Source: Vulcanimicrobiota bacterium (GTDB lineage: Bacteria; Vulcanimicrobiota; Vulcanimicrobiia; Vulcanimicrobiales; Vulcanimicrobiaceae). From it: a stretch of 39,325 nucleotides of DNA. Of the stretch, positions 23,362-28,634 are shown in pieces; positions within the stretch are counted from its first letter, which is position 1, and the number at the start of each line of letters is the position of its first letter. The stretch spans positions 1 through 39,325 of the forward strand of contig JAFAHZ010000021.1 in the NCBI GenBank assembly GCA_019236975.1, written 5' to 3'. A program made the translations under genes and the position numbers. The notes below the pieces were generated by a model. The model did no database searches. It saw nothing but the letters and a program-made list of their open reading frames with translations, and was not told where the DNA came from.

Positions 23362-24777
23362 TTAGTACTTCCCGTTGCCGCCTTCTTCGTAGCCGCGCGA
23401 CATCGAGAGCGCCTCTTTGGTGACGGACTGCAAGAACTCGTCGTTCGTGCGCGTCTGCGCCATCTTGTCGAGGATGATCTCGGTGATGTCGCCGGTATTG
23501 AGCACGGCGGTCGCGCGCCGCAGCATCCACAGCTTGCGCATTTCTTCGGGCGCGAGCAGCAGCTCTTCATGGCGCGTTCCCGAACGCTTGATGTCGATCG
23601 CCGGGAAGACGCGCGACTCGGCGAGTTTGCGCGTGAGGTTGAGCTCCATGTTGCCGGTGCCTTTGAACTCTTCGAAGATCACGTCGTCCATCTTCGAACC
23701 GGTCTCGATGAGCGCCGTTGCGACGATGGTGAGCGAACCGCCTTCTTCGATCTTACGGGCCGCGCCGAAGAAGCGCTTCGGCTTATGCAGCGAGGCGGTA
23801 CCCAGACCGCCCGACAGCGTGCGCCCCGACGTGGGGACGACTTGGTTGTACGCACGCGCGAGACGCGTAATCGAGTCGAGCAGAATCACGACGTCTTTGC
23901 CGAGCTCGACGAGACGCTTCGCGCGTTCCATCGTCAGCTCTGCGACGGCAGTGTGGTTCTCCGGATGCTCGTCGAACGTCGAGGCGACGACTTCGCCGTC
24001 GATCGTGCGCTGCATGTCGGTCACTTCTTCGGGCCGCTCGTCGACGAGCAGCGCGATGATGTGAGCTTCGGGGTGGTTGATGGAAATCGAGTTCGCGATG
24101 TTTTTCAGCAGCGTCGTCTTACCGGCTTTCGGCGGCGAAACGATCAGTGCGCGCTGTCCTTTGCCGATCGGGCAGAACAGATCGATGACGCGCGTCGAGA
24201 GCTGCGTCGAGCGCACTTCGAGCTTGAAGCGCTCCTGCGGGTAGATCGGCGTCCCTTTTTCAAAGACGCGACGCCCCTTGATCGCCTCGGGATCGAATCC
24301 GTTGACCTTATCGACGCGAATGAGACCGTAGTATTTTTCGCTCTCTTTCGGGCGGCGCACTTGGCCTTCGACCATATCGCCGCGGCGCAACTCGAAGCGC
24401 CGAATCTGCGACTGGCTGACGTAAATGTCGTCGTTGCCGATGACGTACCCGCCGCGGCGCAAGAAGCCGTAGCCTTCCGGCAAGATGTCGAGGATGCCGT
24501 TAGCCATCTCGAGGCCGGAGCGAGCGGTCTGCGCCGTAACGATCAGCGCGACGATGTCGTCCTTCTTGAGCTTGGCAGGGCTGGGAATCTCGACTTCGAG
24601 CTCGCGAGCCAACTCGACGAGGTCGGTCTTGGTCTTCTCCGCCAGTTGCGCTTGCGTCAGCATCGGCGGAACGTTTTCGGCTTGTGGAAATTCGTGGTAG
24701 GCAGCGGGGTGCTGGCCGAAGTGGTGCCGGCGGCGCGAACGGCGTCGGCGTCCACCGCCCCCTTGTTGAGGACGCAT
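23362..24777 (-). CDS. rho: transcription termination factor Rho
   Basis: A 471-aa hexameric RNA helicase that ends transcription of untranslated RNA. N-terminal Rho_N helix-turn (TDLVELARELEVEIPSPAKL), CSD-like RNA-binding domain (ANGILDILPEGYGFLR, then NDDIYVSQSQIRRFELRRGD), and the ATPase core with Walker A SPPKAGKTTLLKN (about 213-225), DERPEEVTDM, VILLDSITRLARAYN, and the Q/R-loop PSGR-like SGRTLSGGL. A Gly/Arg-rich stretch (GGGGRRRRSRRRHHFG) precedes the N-domain. ATG 24777 is chosen because the sequence upstream to the next start (GTG 24834) is AT-richer leader; either is possible. A promoter 170 bases upstream suggests a long leader. Confidence 0.95.
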   Translation of the reverse strand: MRPQQGGGGRRRRSRRRHHFGQHPAAYHEFPQAENVPPMLTQAQLAEKTKTDLVELARELEVEIPSPAKLKKDDIVALIVTAQTARSGLEMANGILDILPEGYGFLRRGGYVIGNDDIYVSQSQIRRFELRRGDMVEGQVRRPKESEKYYGLIRVDKVNGFDPEAIKGRRVFEKGTPIYPQERFKLEVRSTQLSTRVIDLFCPIGKGQRALIVSPPKAGKTTLLKNIANSISINHPEAHIIALLVDERPEEVTDMQRTIDGEVVASTFDEHPENHTAVAELTMERAKRLVELGKDVVILLDSITRLARAYNQVVPTSGRTLSGGLGTASLHKPKRFFGAARKIEEGGSLTIVATALIETGSKMDDVIFEEFKGTGNMELNLTRKLAESRVFPAIDIKRSGTRHEELLLAPEEMRKLWMLRRATAVLNTGDITEIILDKMAQTRTNDEFLQSVTKEALSMSRGYEEGGNGKY

Positions 24778-24953
24778 GTCGTTATTTGGACGATGTTCCG
24801 TTTGCAGAGGATTTTCTCTCTTGTAGAGTCGCACGCGTCTAACAGCGAGTTCGCCCGGCGAGGCTGCCTTGCGATCCGATCGGCGACGTGTACGTGGGGA
24901 ATGTCAAGGTGCCGCGGCTGTCAGCAAGCGCCAACTACATCGCGACGAGTCAC

Positions 24954-24988: not shown

Positions 24989-25567
24989 TCACGGCGGGCT
25001 CAAGCGCGCCGGCCCGCTCACGAACCGGTTGCCCGCCTCGTAGAAGCGCAACAGGCGGGTGGCCGCGCGCGTGAGACCGATCCTCCGGCTGCGGCGTACG
25101 GGGCCGCGAGGCGTACCGGCCGCCTCCAGGCGCAGTCCGTCACCCGCAAAAACGTCGGCCCCGTCGAAAGAACGATCGATCTTCAGCGCGGCGCACAGGC
25201 GCCCCGGGCCGCGGCAGAGATCGCGTGCGTCTTGCACGCCGCGCCGCTGACGCATTAAATGAAGGCCTTCGAGGGGTTCGAGCGCGCGGACGAGCACGCC
25301 CGCGCCTTCGCCGTCGGGCTCGCTTGAAAGGTTGAAACAGAACGACGTTCCGTAGATGAGATAAACGTAGGCTCGGTGCGGCGGTCCGAAGAGCGTCGCG
25401 TTTCTCGCCGTTTTTCCGCCGTAGGCGTGGCAGGCCGGATCGTTCGGAAGATACGCTTCGGTTTCGACGATGCGCCCGGACGCGATACCTTCGGCGGATT
25501 CGCGCACCAACACGCAGCCGATTAAAGATTCGGCGAGCGCCGTCGTTTCGACTGGGAGCGAAAACAC
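24989..25567 (-). CDS. mpg: DNA-3-methyladenine glycosylase (AAG/Mpg family)
   Basis: A 192-aa AAG-type glycosylase that removes alkylated purines such as 3-methyladenine from DNA. GRIVETEAYLPNDPACHAYG (31-50) includes the general-base Glu, followed by TARNATLFGPPHRAYVYLIYG, and further down DLCRGPGRLCAALKID. GTG 25567 gives the family N-terminus VFSLPVETTALAESLIGCVLV. Ten bases after the RNase H-like gene; both should be transcribed from the LexA-like promoter at 26014-26041, making this a DNA-damage candidate. Full length and no missing motif. Confidence 0.93.
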   Translation of the reverse strand: MFSLPVETTALAESLIGCVLVRESAEGIASGRIVETEAYLPNDPACHAYGGKTARNATLFGPPHRAYVYLIYGTSFCFNLSSEPDGEGAGVLVRALEPLEGLHLMRQRRGVQDARDLCRGPGRLCAALKIDRSFDGADVFAGDGLRLEAAGTPRGPVRRSRRIGLTRAATRLLRFYEAGNRFVSGPARLSPP

Positions 25568-25577
25568 GCGGGCTCTG

Positions 25578-25994
25578 TTATGCCGCGGTGTCGAGTGCGA
25601 CCTCCGCGCGAGCGCGCTGCGTGAGCTCCGGCGAAAGGTTCGGCAACAGTTCGACGCGCTCGAAACCGTTCAGCGCGCATTTAAGGCGCACGTACGGAAG
25701 CACGATCGTGTCGGGAACGTCGCTGGTGCACGCTAACTCGGAGAGCAGCGCGGCATCGCCGACTGCCAGGGCCGCGTGGCGCACGCCGCGGCGCTGCAAA
25801 GCCCTGGCAATCTCCGTCACCGCCGCGTAGCCGACTTCGCGATCGGAAAACCCCGCGTTCAGTCGAAAGCCTACGCGCAAGAGATGTTCGCCCGCGGCCC
25901 GCCGCAGCCGAGCGTAGGCGACGCCGCGACCGCCCGGCCCAGCGGCAAAGCCGACTTCGGCGTGGACGGACGGAGCTGGATCTCTGCGCTTCAC
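25578..25994 (-). CDS. RNase H-like domain protein (variant active site)
   Basis: A 138-aa protein resembling the RNase HI/RVT_3 fold. HAEVGFAAGPGGRGVAYARL fits the first strand-turn (D-G-A-x-G-N-P-G-x-x-G), with Glu where the first Asp normally is; DREVGYAAVTEIARALQ has the second acidic residue (Glu), AVGDAALLSEL the third Asp, and NLSPELTQRARAEV the C-terminal N-x-x-A-D-x-L-A motif. The match is by motif spacing only. GTG 25994 follows GAGGG by 6-7 bases, a good ribosome-binding site. Directly downstream of a consensus promoter and cotranscribed with mpg. Activity on RNA-DNA hybrids is a guess. Confidence 0.55.
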   Translation of the reverse strand: MKRRDPAPSVHAEVGFAAGPGGRGVAYARLRRAAGEHLLRVGFRLNAGFSDREVGYAAVTEIARALQRRGVRHAALAVGDAALLSELACTSDVPDTIVLPYVRLKCALNGFERVELLPNLSPELTQRARAEVALDTAA

Positions 25995-26013: not shown

Positions 26014-26041
26014 ATTATACCGAACGTACGTTCGGTGTCAA
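26014..26041 (-). promoter_or_regulatory. consensus promoter with LexA-type palindrome in the spacer
   Basis: On the minus strand TTGACA (26041-26036), a 16-base spacer, then TATAAT (26019-26014): both hexamers are perfect. The 18-base perfect palindrome ACCGAACGTACGTTCGGT (26019-26036) fills the spacer and includes one base of each hexamer. Its core CGAACGTACGTTCG matches the Bacillus/Actinobacteria LexA box GAAC-N4-GTTC. A repressor bound there would block polymerase at the RNase H-like/mpg operon. The element is written in the last codons of the upstream glycosyltransferase, whose TAA stop lies inside TATAAT. Confidence 0.85.
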
Positions 26042-27211
26042 CTCCCGATCGGCGAACGGCCCATCGCCGGGCGCCAAACTTGCGTACAGACCCAGCATGC
26101 GATCGACCTGCGCGCCGATCGAGAAGCGCGATGCCCGGCGGCGGGCAAGCATGGCAATCTCGGCCGAAGGCGTCGCCGGTATTGCCGAAAAGGCCGCGGC
26201 AAAGGCCTGCGGAGCGGCGGTCGCAATCGCCCCCGCCTGTCCCAAGACGTCGCGATTGGGCGGTGCGTCGGCGGCGATCACGAACGCGCCGGCCGCCAGT
26301 GCCTCCGCCTGAACCAGCCCCTGAGTTTCGGTGGTGCTCGGCATGACGAAAGCGTCGGCGCTGGCGTACAAATCGGGCAGACCTTCCCGGTCGACGACGC
26401 CGAGGAAGCGGGTTCGATCGGCCACTCCCCGGCTGCGAGCGTACTCCACCAGCTCGTCGCGCGCCGGACCGTCGCCGGCTATGGCCAGCTTCAGGCGCGA
26501 ATCGCCGGCTAGGGCGAGGGCATCGAGCAGCAGCTCGAGGTTCTTCTCTTTTGCAAGACGCGAAACGCACAGCAGCAGCCGGTCCGCTGCGCCGGCTCCC
26601 AGCGACGCGCGCAGCCGCTCGTCGCGCCGGCCTTCCCCAAAACGATCGACGTCGATTCCGCTGGGCACCACCTCGATGCGCACGACGACGCCGAGGTCCC
26701 GCAGGTGCGTCGCCATTGCAGGCGTCGGGACGACGACGGCGTCGGCGAGGTTCGCGAAGCGCCGGGTGAGCTGCGAAGCCGCATAGCGCGTGGCGTTCGG
26801 TTCGAAGGGGACGTAGTGCGCGTACGCCTCGAGCTGCGTGTGATACGTGTAGACCAGCGGCATGCCGTACCGCCGCGCGTAGCGCAGTCCCATCCAGCCC
26901 GTCACGAACGGCGAGTGCACGTGCACCAGCGACAGACGTTTGACGATGTTGTTGACGTTTCGGCGGCTGACCAGCGGCAGCGTCAGACGATACGGCGTGC
27001 GCGTCGGCAACGGAAGGGACGGCATGCGCAGGATGCTTTCGCGCGCCGGCGCTCGGCCGGGATCCTCGTAACCCGGCATCCGCGGGGTGAAGCAGTACAC
27101 CTCGTGTCCGCGGGTGCGCAGTCCCTGGGCCAGCGCCTCGACGGAAGCCACCACACCGTTGACCACCGGCCGGTAGACTTCGGTAAAAAACCCGATGCGC
27201 AGAGTCGGCAT
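26015..27211 (-). CDS. glycosyltransferase family 4 protein
   Basis: A 398-aa GT-B glycosyltransferase (family 4, PimB/MshA-like or diacylglycerol glycosyltransferase-like). N-terminal RIGFFTEVYRPVVNGVVASVE is typical of lipid glycosyltransferases of this branch; VVPSGIDVDRF opens the donor domain; VSRLAKEKNLELLLDAL and STTETQGLVQAEALAAG (E-x7-E pattern) bind the nucleotide-sugar. It probably glycosylates a membrane lipid or cell-wall precursor, but acceptor and donor cannot be read. ATG 27211 is taken because homology starts right after it. The 3' end encodes the promoter of the downstream operon. Confidence 0.88.
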   Translation of the reverse strand: MPTLRIGFFTEVYRPVVNGVVASVEALAQGLRTRGHEVYCFTPRMPGYEDPGRAPARESILRMPSLPLPTRTPYRLTLPLVSRRNVNNIVKRLSLVHVHSPFVTGWMGLRYARRYGMPLVYTYHTQLEAYAHYVPFEPNATRYAASQLTRRFANLADAVVVPTPAMATHLRDLGVVVRIEVVPSGIDVDRFGEGRRDERLRASLGAGAADRLLLCVSRLAKEKNLELLLDALALAGDSRLKLAIAGDGPARDELVEYARSRGVADRTRFLGVVDREGLPDLYASADAFVMPSTTETQGLVQAEALAAGAFVIAADAPPNRDVLGQAGAIATAAPQAFAAAFSAIPATPSAEIAMLARRRASRFSIGAQVDRMLGLYASLAPGDGPFADRELTPNVRSV

Positions 27212-27299
27212 ACCCGCACTAGTGTACCGCACTGTCGATAGAAGGGACCTCCTGCACGATTGCGACTTTCGGCATATTCCTCTTTCGCGGCGGCCGTGC

Positions 27300-27578: not shown

Positions 27579-28634
27579 TTGATCGGCCGCGGACCACTCC
27601 GGCTGAGCCACGTTCTGGTCGTTGCGCTCCTGACCGCCGTTTTCGTGTGGGCGGGATTCGTAACGCACCCGTCTGCCGCATTCGCCTCCGCCGGTGACGG
27701 CGCGACGGCGGCGCCTCTCGCGCCGCACTCCGTCACGCTCGAAGCTAACGGTGCGACGGTGCAGACGACCAGCGACGCGGCGACGGTCGGCGATTTCCTG
27801 CGCGAGCGCAATCTCAGCGTCGGACCGCACGATTACGTGTATCCCGATCAGGACGTTCCGCTTTCCGACGGTTTGGCCGTAACCTACCGCGCGGCCGTAA
27901 GCGTAACCATTGAAACGGCGCGCGATCGCGTCGCCGTCACGTCGTCGGCCGACGACGTCGGCTCGCTGCTCGAAGAAGAAAACATTCGTCTCGATGCGGG
28001 CGACCGCGTGCAGCCGCCGCTCGATGCGGCGCTGCCGGCAAACGGCGTCGTCCGGATCGTGCACGTCGTCGCTTGGCAGCGAACCGAGCGCAGCGCGATC
28101 GAACCGCAAACGATTCACCGGCTCGATTTTTCGATAACGCCCGGAAGCTCGCGCGTCCTCGCTCGCGGCTCGCGCGGCGAGCGCGAAGACGTCGTTCGTT
28201 TCGAGCGGCTGGACGGCGCACCGGTAACGCGCACCGTCGTCTCTTCGCACGTTCTGCGCAAAGCTCGTCCGCAAATCGTTGCCGACGGCATCGACGAATA
28301 CGAAGCGTTCGCGCGCATGGAACAACGCGGGGTCGAGCGCACGGCATATCTCGCTGAGAGCGCGCTGCAAATGGTCGCGACGGCGTACACCGCCGGCTGT
28401 TACGGCTGCAGCGGCATCACCGCAATCGGTAGACCCGCGGGCCACGGAATCGTCGCCGTCGATCCCAGCGTTATCCCGCTCGGCACGCGCCTCTTCATTC
28501 CGGGATACGGCTTGGCCATTGCCGGCGACACGGGCGGTGCGATTCGCGGCTTTCGGATCGATCTCGGTTTCAACTCCGAGCGCGACGCACTTCTGTTCGG
28601 ACGACGCGAAGTCACCGTATACAGGTTGAAGTAG
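27579..28634 (+). CDS. DUF348-G5-3D domain cell-wall protein (YabE/Rpf-like)
   Basis: A 351-aa exported protein. N-terminal hydrophobic signal (LRLSHVLVVALLTAVFVWAG), two DUF348 repeats (about 49-160: SVTLEANGATVQTTSDAATV, SVTIETARDRVAVTSSADDV), a G5 domain (about 165-250) and a C-terminal 3D domain (about 264-345: MVATAYTAGCYGCSG, GIVAVDPSVIPLGTRLFIPG, AGDTGGAIRGFRIDLG) with the three conserved aspartates of lytic/DPBB enzymes. It would bind or cleave peptidoglycan, like B. subtilis YabE. TTG 27579 is the start, 10 bases after AAGGAAAGGA; GTG 27531 would leave a longer Arg-rich N-terminus. The gene directly before rsmA matches the yabE-ksgA and rpfB-ksgA neighbourhoods. Confidence 0.87.
   Translation: MIGRGPLRLSHVLVVALLTAVFVWAGFVTHPSAAFASAGDGATAAPLAPHSVTLEANGATVQTTSDAATVGDFLRERNLSVGPHDYVYPDQDVPLSDGLAVTYRAAVSVTIETARDRVAVTSSADDVGSLLEEENIRLDAGDRVQPPLDAALPANGVVRIVHVVAWQRTERSAIEPQTIHRLDFSITPGSSRVLARGSRGEREDVVRFERLDGAPVTRTVVSSHVLRKARPQIVADGIDEYEAFARMEQRGVERTAYLAESALQMVATAYTAGCYGCSGITAIGRPAGHGIVAVDPSVIPLGTRLFIPGYGLAIAGDTGGAIRGFRIDLGFNSERDALLFGRREVTVYRLK

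Follow-up and report, generated by a model that had tools for sequence, protein, structure and literature searches.

A consensus promoter whose spacer is occupied by a palindrome raises two questions, namely, what kind of protein would bind the palindrome and which gene would thereby be controlled. Such a site is located on the minus strand of the window (the whole 39,325-nucleotide stretch of DNA analyzed here), which comes from an uncultured soil bacterium of Candidatus Eremiobacterota (a 3.19 Mb genome in 336 contigs, with a completeness of approximately 90%). Comparison with related genomes indicates that LexA very probably binds this site, which would be the operator within the core promoter of an SOS operon. 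The features of the locus are the following:

26014..26041, minus strand: sigma-70-type promoter TTGACA-N16-TATAAT, with 12 of 12 consensus bases
26021..26034, minus strand: predicted LexA operator (SOS box) CGAACGTACGTTCG, matching CGAACN4GTTCG, inside the promoter spacer
26015..27232, minus strand: upstream gene for a family-4 glycosyltransferase (PF13439/PF00534), with its last codons and TAA stop inside the promoter
25578..25994, minus strand: gene for an uncharacterized 138-residue RNase H-fold protein, first in the putative operon, with a GTG start 26 nt after the box
24989..25567, minus strand: mpg, methylpurine-DNA glycosylase (PF02245, E 5e-61), after a 10-nt gap behind the RNase H-fold gene
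23362..24834, minus strand: rho (Rho_RNA_bind and ATP-synt_ab domains), the next gene downstream of mpg

The promoter and its overlapping signals

On the minus strand, the region reads GGGAG-TTGACA-CCGAACGTACGTTCGG-TATAAT-TTGCCCAAGAGGGCATTGA-GTG, with the -35 hexamer TTGACA at 26041-26036 and the -10 hexamer TATAAT at 26019-26014. The 16-base spacer (26035-26020) is itself palindromic and contains an exact CGAAC-N4-GTTCG motif (SOS box), and the 18-bp palindrome ACCGAACGTACGTTCGGT (26019-26036) takes in one base of each hexamer. These observations confirm the preliminary description, which had reported two consensus hexamers, a 16-base spacer and an 18-base perfect palindrome with a core matching the Gram-positive SOS box. 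A TTGACA-16-TATAAT site with all 12 consensus bases is the only one of its kind in the window. As a model of chance occurrence, we used 200 first-order Markov copies of the window (GC content of 64%), none of which contained a consensus promoter with 15-18 spacing; an 18-bp palindrome was present somewhere in 60% of the copies and hence is not rare, and 0.2 bare CGAAC-N4-GTTCG boxes are expected per window, so that neither the palindrome nor the bare box was accepted as significant by itself. Long palindromes are not rare at such a GC content; a perfect one of 20 bp, ACGTCGTCGGCCGACGACGT, lies at 27939-27958, within a gene encoding G5/3D domains.

The promoter overlaps the end of the glycosyltransferase gene: as noticed in the preliminary description and confirmed by the end of the open reading frame at 26015, the TAA stop codon of this gene (26017-26015) is part of TATAAT. 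The glycosyltransferase gene ends in 20 of 30 loci with the TGA contained in the -35 hexamer (TTGAC); in the window and in the sister genome, the stop has shifted to the -10 hexamer (TAA or TAG). Thus, the shared stop is one form of an overlap that recurs among the loci. This compact layout, in which a stop codon doubles as part of a promoter hexamer and the spacer holds an operator, presents a clean case of overlapping signals.

Conservation of the box and the gene it probably controls

The decisive evidence, judging from genome comparison, is conservation: all relatives examined have the box in the same promoter. The box is present in the target-gene promoter in all 48 genomes examined, which represent three families within one class of Ca. 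Eremiobacterota and contribute 30 loci of a first set and 18 more distant loci drawn from the same family, a second family of the order and a third family of the class. Each locus of the first set (approximately 3.4 kb) contains exactly one box, located just upstream of the gene for the 138-residue protein (30 of 30), and the box is found in all 18 distant loci, with a single mismatch in one of them (L197). The same holds for 30 of 30 named Eremiobacterota-type contigs, nearly all titled Candidatus Eremiobacterota, which partly overlap with the genomes of the first set. Two contigs titled Rhodospirillales (L161 and L162) carry an Eremiobacterota locus and probably are mislabelled MAGs. In nearly all relatives, the core of the box is exactly CGAAC-N4-GTTCG, and the box lies between a good -35 element, matching in 5 or 6 of 6 positions in 28 of 30 relatives, and a -10 element, with a spacer of 17-18 in 25 of the 30. 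The target-gene sites score 16-31 bits, compared to at most 10.0 bits for the best box in 20 control loci of canonical RNase HI (approximately 3.3 kb each) from the same genomes. The proteins encoded downstream of the box are often less than 50% identical between genomes that keep it.

The second gene of the putative operon, mpg, follows after a gap of only 10 nt, is the sole gene with a known repair function here and is located downstream in 28 of the 30 loci of the first set. It could accordingly be suggested that the operator serves mpg and that the RNase H-fold open reading frame is incidental. However, in most genomes of family f3 and a few of family f1, mpg is not downstream, and the box and the RNase H-fold gene are still paired; in most of f3, the latter gene stands alone, mostly adjoining a convergent permease-like gene. 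Therefore, the box belongs to the RNase H-fold gene, the protein family of which is represented in 88 of the 96 genomes and 42 of the 43 genera of the class; we consider control of mpg as the purpose of the operator improbable and rejected mpg as the conserved target. The initial expectation that the box would be conserved ahead of mpg thus has to be modified: the box precedes the RNase H-like gene in 48 of 48 genomes, but mpg is not downstream in most of f3. By this comparison, mpg is a later passenger of the box-controlled gene, with which it is probably co-transcribed in the window. In the 154-nt gap between mpg and rho, no terminator-like site was found.

LexA and the extent of the predicted regulon

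The genome encodes one complete LexA (PF01726, E 2.3e-25; TIGR00498, E 1.4e-69, 233.8 bits with a cut-off of 110.95), which can be aligned along its length with LexA chains of solved structure and contains the Ala-Gly cleavage site, the GDSM serine and the VKRF lysine. In this genome, the box CGAACGTATGTTTG is located approximately 100 nt upstream of lexA, and a CGAAC-N4-GTTTG-type box precedes lexA in all 30 genomes compared, this one included, at 53-212 nt upstream of the lexA match (here and for recA, 30 strand-oriented loci were analyzed). The lexA promoters usually contain a second, weaker box as well, which mostly precedes the main box by approximately 60 or 100 nt and often reads CCAAACGCCTGTTCGT (L075-L104).

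The exact motif CGAACRTAYGTTYG is found at only five sites in the 3.19 Mb genome, namely, at lexA, at imuA-imuB, at an Rv2578c-type radical-SAM gene, in contig C238 and in the window. The C238 box (CGAACGTATGTTCG; L063:1163-1176) has no clear target, and the exact sites in the sister genome, G001, do not include it. The start of the radical-SAM (Rv2578c-type) gene carries the SOS box in both the window genome (L065:4192-4205) and the sister genome (L165:1501-1514), which points to a possible repair function for that protein family. In four relatives, there are 4-7 exact sites each versus 0-1 for the reversed pattern. Apart from some unassigned ones, these sites are located ahead of lexA, imuA, a PHP-domain (DnaE2-like) gene, the radical-SAM gene and the window gene, as well as of the genes for an AlkB-type 2OG-Fe(II) oxygenase and a class II ribonucleotide reductase (G009; L177:1501-1514, L173:1501-1514). 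The one-mismatch sites in contigs C105, C190, C254, C282 and C290 of the source genome lie inside long open reading frames, look like chance occurrences and were discarded. A one-mismatch box, CGAACGTTTGTTCG (L067:4164-4177, contig C289), is located just before a large ATPase-regulator-like open reading frame, which is a candidate target.

The recA gene is a usual, albeit not universal, member of the SOS response. In the box scan (sites above 16 bits), no box was detected in 29 of the 30 recA loci, the lone exception being an 18-bit site in locus L118, so that recA was rejected as a regulon member; we suspected that the L118 site was the T-arm of a tRNA, and ARAGORN finds no tRNA. In this lineage, LexA control seems to leave recA out.

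These findings bear on the LexA-type reading given in the preliminary description, which called for lexA in the genome and for boxes near recA, lexA and other repair genes. The reading is supported by the presence of lexA and by the box at lexA (30 of 30), at the target (48 of 48) and at imuA-imuB; boxes were also found at other repair genes, and only the expectation for recA failed. Operators of TetR-family repressors are often palindromes of comparable length, and the palindrome might, in principle, belong to such a dimeric repressor and resemble an SOS box only by its form. The occurrence of the same motif before lexA and imuA-imuB, which are standard LexA targets, and the nearly invariant CGAAC-N4-GTTCG core in the relatives make this possibility very unlikely. 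That a GC-rich genome merely produced one of its many palindromes (cf. the Markov copies) inside a consensus promoter is ruled out by the retention of the same promoter with the same box in 48 of 48 genomes in spite of the divergence of the proteins encoded downstream.

Under the LexA reading, and by analogy with established SOS biology, a LexA dimer bound to CGAACGTACGTTCG between the -35 and -10 elements would keep RNA polymerase off an otherwise strong promoter in undamaged cells. Upon DNA damage, RecA filaments would stimulate self-cleavage of LexA at the Ala-Gly site, for which the Ser and Lys residues are present; the release of LexA would allow expression of the RNase H-fold gene and mpg, and MPG would then remove alkylated purines. 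What the analysis shows is the sequence and the conservation of the site, a complete LexA whose own promoter bears the same box, and other repair genes preceded by it; LexA binding, induction, transcription as an operon and the role of the RNase H-fold protein are inferred.

The predicted RNase H-fold protein and the probable SOS response of Eremiobacterota

The 138-residue protein has no sequence match in Pfam, NCBIfam or PDB; none of 30 family members matches an RNase H family in Pfam at E 1, and the window protein has no NCBIfam match and lacks the PF00075 signature. The AlphaFold2 model built on 29 sequences (pLDDT 92.2, pTM 0.86) has the order beta-beta-beta-alpha-beta-alpha-alpha-beta-alpha, and the top Foldseek matches in PDB are RNase HI structures (4e19 from Halobacterium and 3hst, the M. 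tuberculosis Rv2228c domain; E 1.2e-7, TM 0.71). Because hhalign yields only a weak, partial match to RNase HI, the assignment of the RNase H fold rests on the predicted model; with the Foldseek matches, this model bears out the RNase H-like label, which had been a guess by eye. Unlike the predicted fold, the catalytic residues of ribonuclease HI are mostly not conserved. With the caveat that the weakness of the alignment renders residue equivalences uncertain, the conserved D-E-D-D active site of RNase HI is mostly not kept in the family: there is no invariant Asp at positions 16-19 (Phe-Ala-Ala-Gly in the window protein) and the beta-1 Asp is not conserved, Glu53 varies (E/D/A/V), the last helix has no conserved Asp, and the invariant Asp80 is the sole such residue near a catalytic position. 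Because the active site is mostly not kept and the genome has a canonical RNase HI at a separate place, ordinary RNase H activity is unlikely. The protein probably is an accessory factor in damage tolerance that binds nucleic acids but does not perform normal RNase H catalysis, the accessory role being a guess.

A parallel is offered by the imuA-imuB-dnaE2 SOS mutagenesis cassette, of which imuA-imuB also lie behind an SOS box in the source genome: ImuB has been described as a catalytically dead protein with an enzyme fold (PMC9578287) and in this respect resembles the 138-residue protein, whereas the folds are unrelated and the loci are separate.

No member of the protein family was found in five genomes that represent other families within the phylum. 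In family f1, 45 of 46 distinct proteins end in Ala-Ala, mostly Val-Ala-Ala (25578-25586 in the window), and in families f2 and f3, the C-termini end otherwise. Similar Ala-Ala ends are present in the ssrA tag and in the N-terminal fragment of LexA and are like ClpXP degrons; a literature search for a LexA VAA degron found no paper. Tentatively, and with somewhat less than even confidence, we propose that these proteins comprise a new family of SOS effectors with an RNase H fold that is probably non-catalytic, nearly class-wide, always under LexA where examined and maybe a ClpXP substrate. If degraded by ClpXP, the protein may appear in a short post-damage burst and act on DNA-RNA hybrids, stalled forks or cell division.

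The operator type CGAACN4GTTCG is textbook knowledge (PMC9578287, PMC2248561), being the LexA operator (SOS box) of B. subtilis and S. aureus (PMC9578287). The site analyzed here shares with the Gram-positive LexA operators (SOS/Cheo box) the palindrome, the core-promoter placement and the same box at lexA, and differs in the host, Ca. Eremiobacterota, and in that recA is outside the regulon by the box scan. No paper joining LexA with Eremiobacterota was found in the collection of papers searched. The novelty lies in the lineage of the host and in a target family that has no name, and the sequence comparisons strongly support an ordinary LexA operator that controls an undescribed, lineage-wide SOS gene. 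Because the RNase H-fold gene is kept under LexA in three families, it very likely matters in DNA damage, and what it does is thus a well-posed question. From sequence, the analysis draws a first outline of the SOS regulon for an uncultured phylum, in which an unnamed protein family is among the most faithful members.
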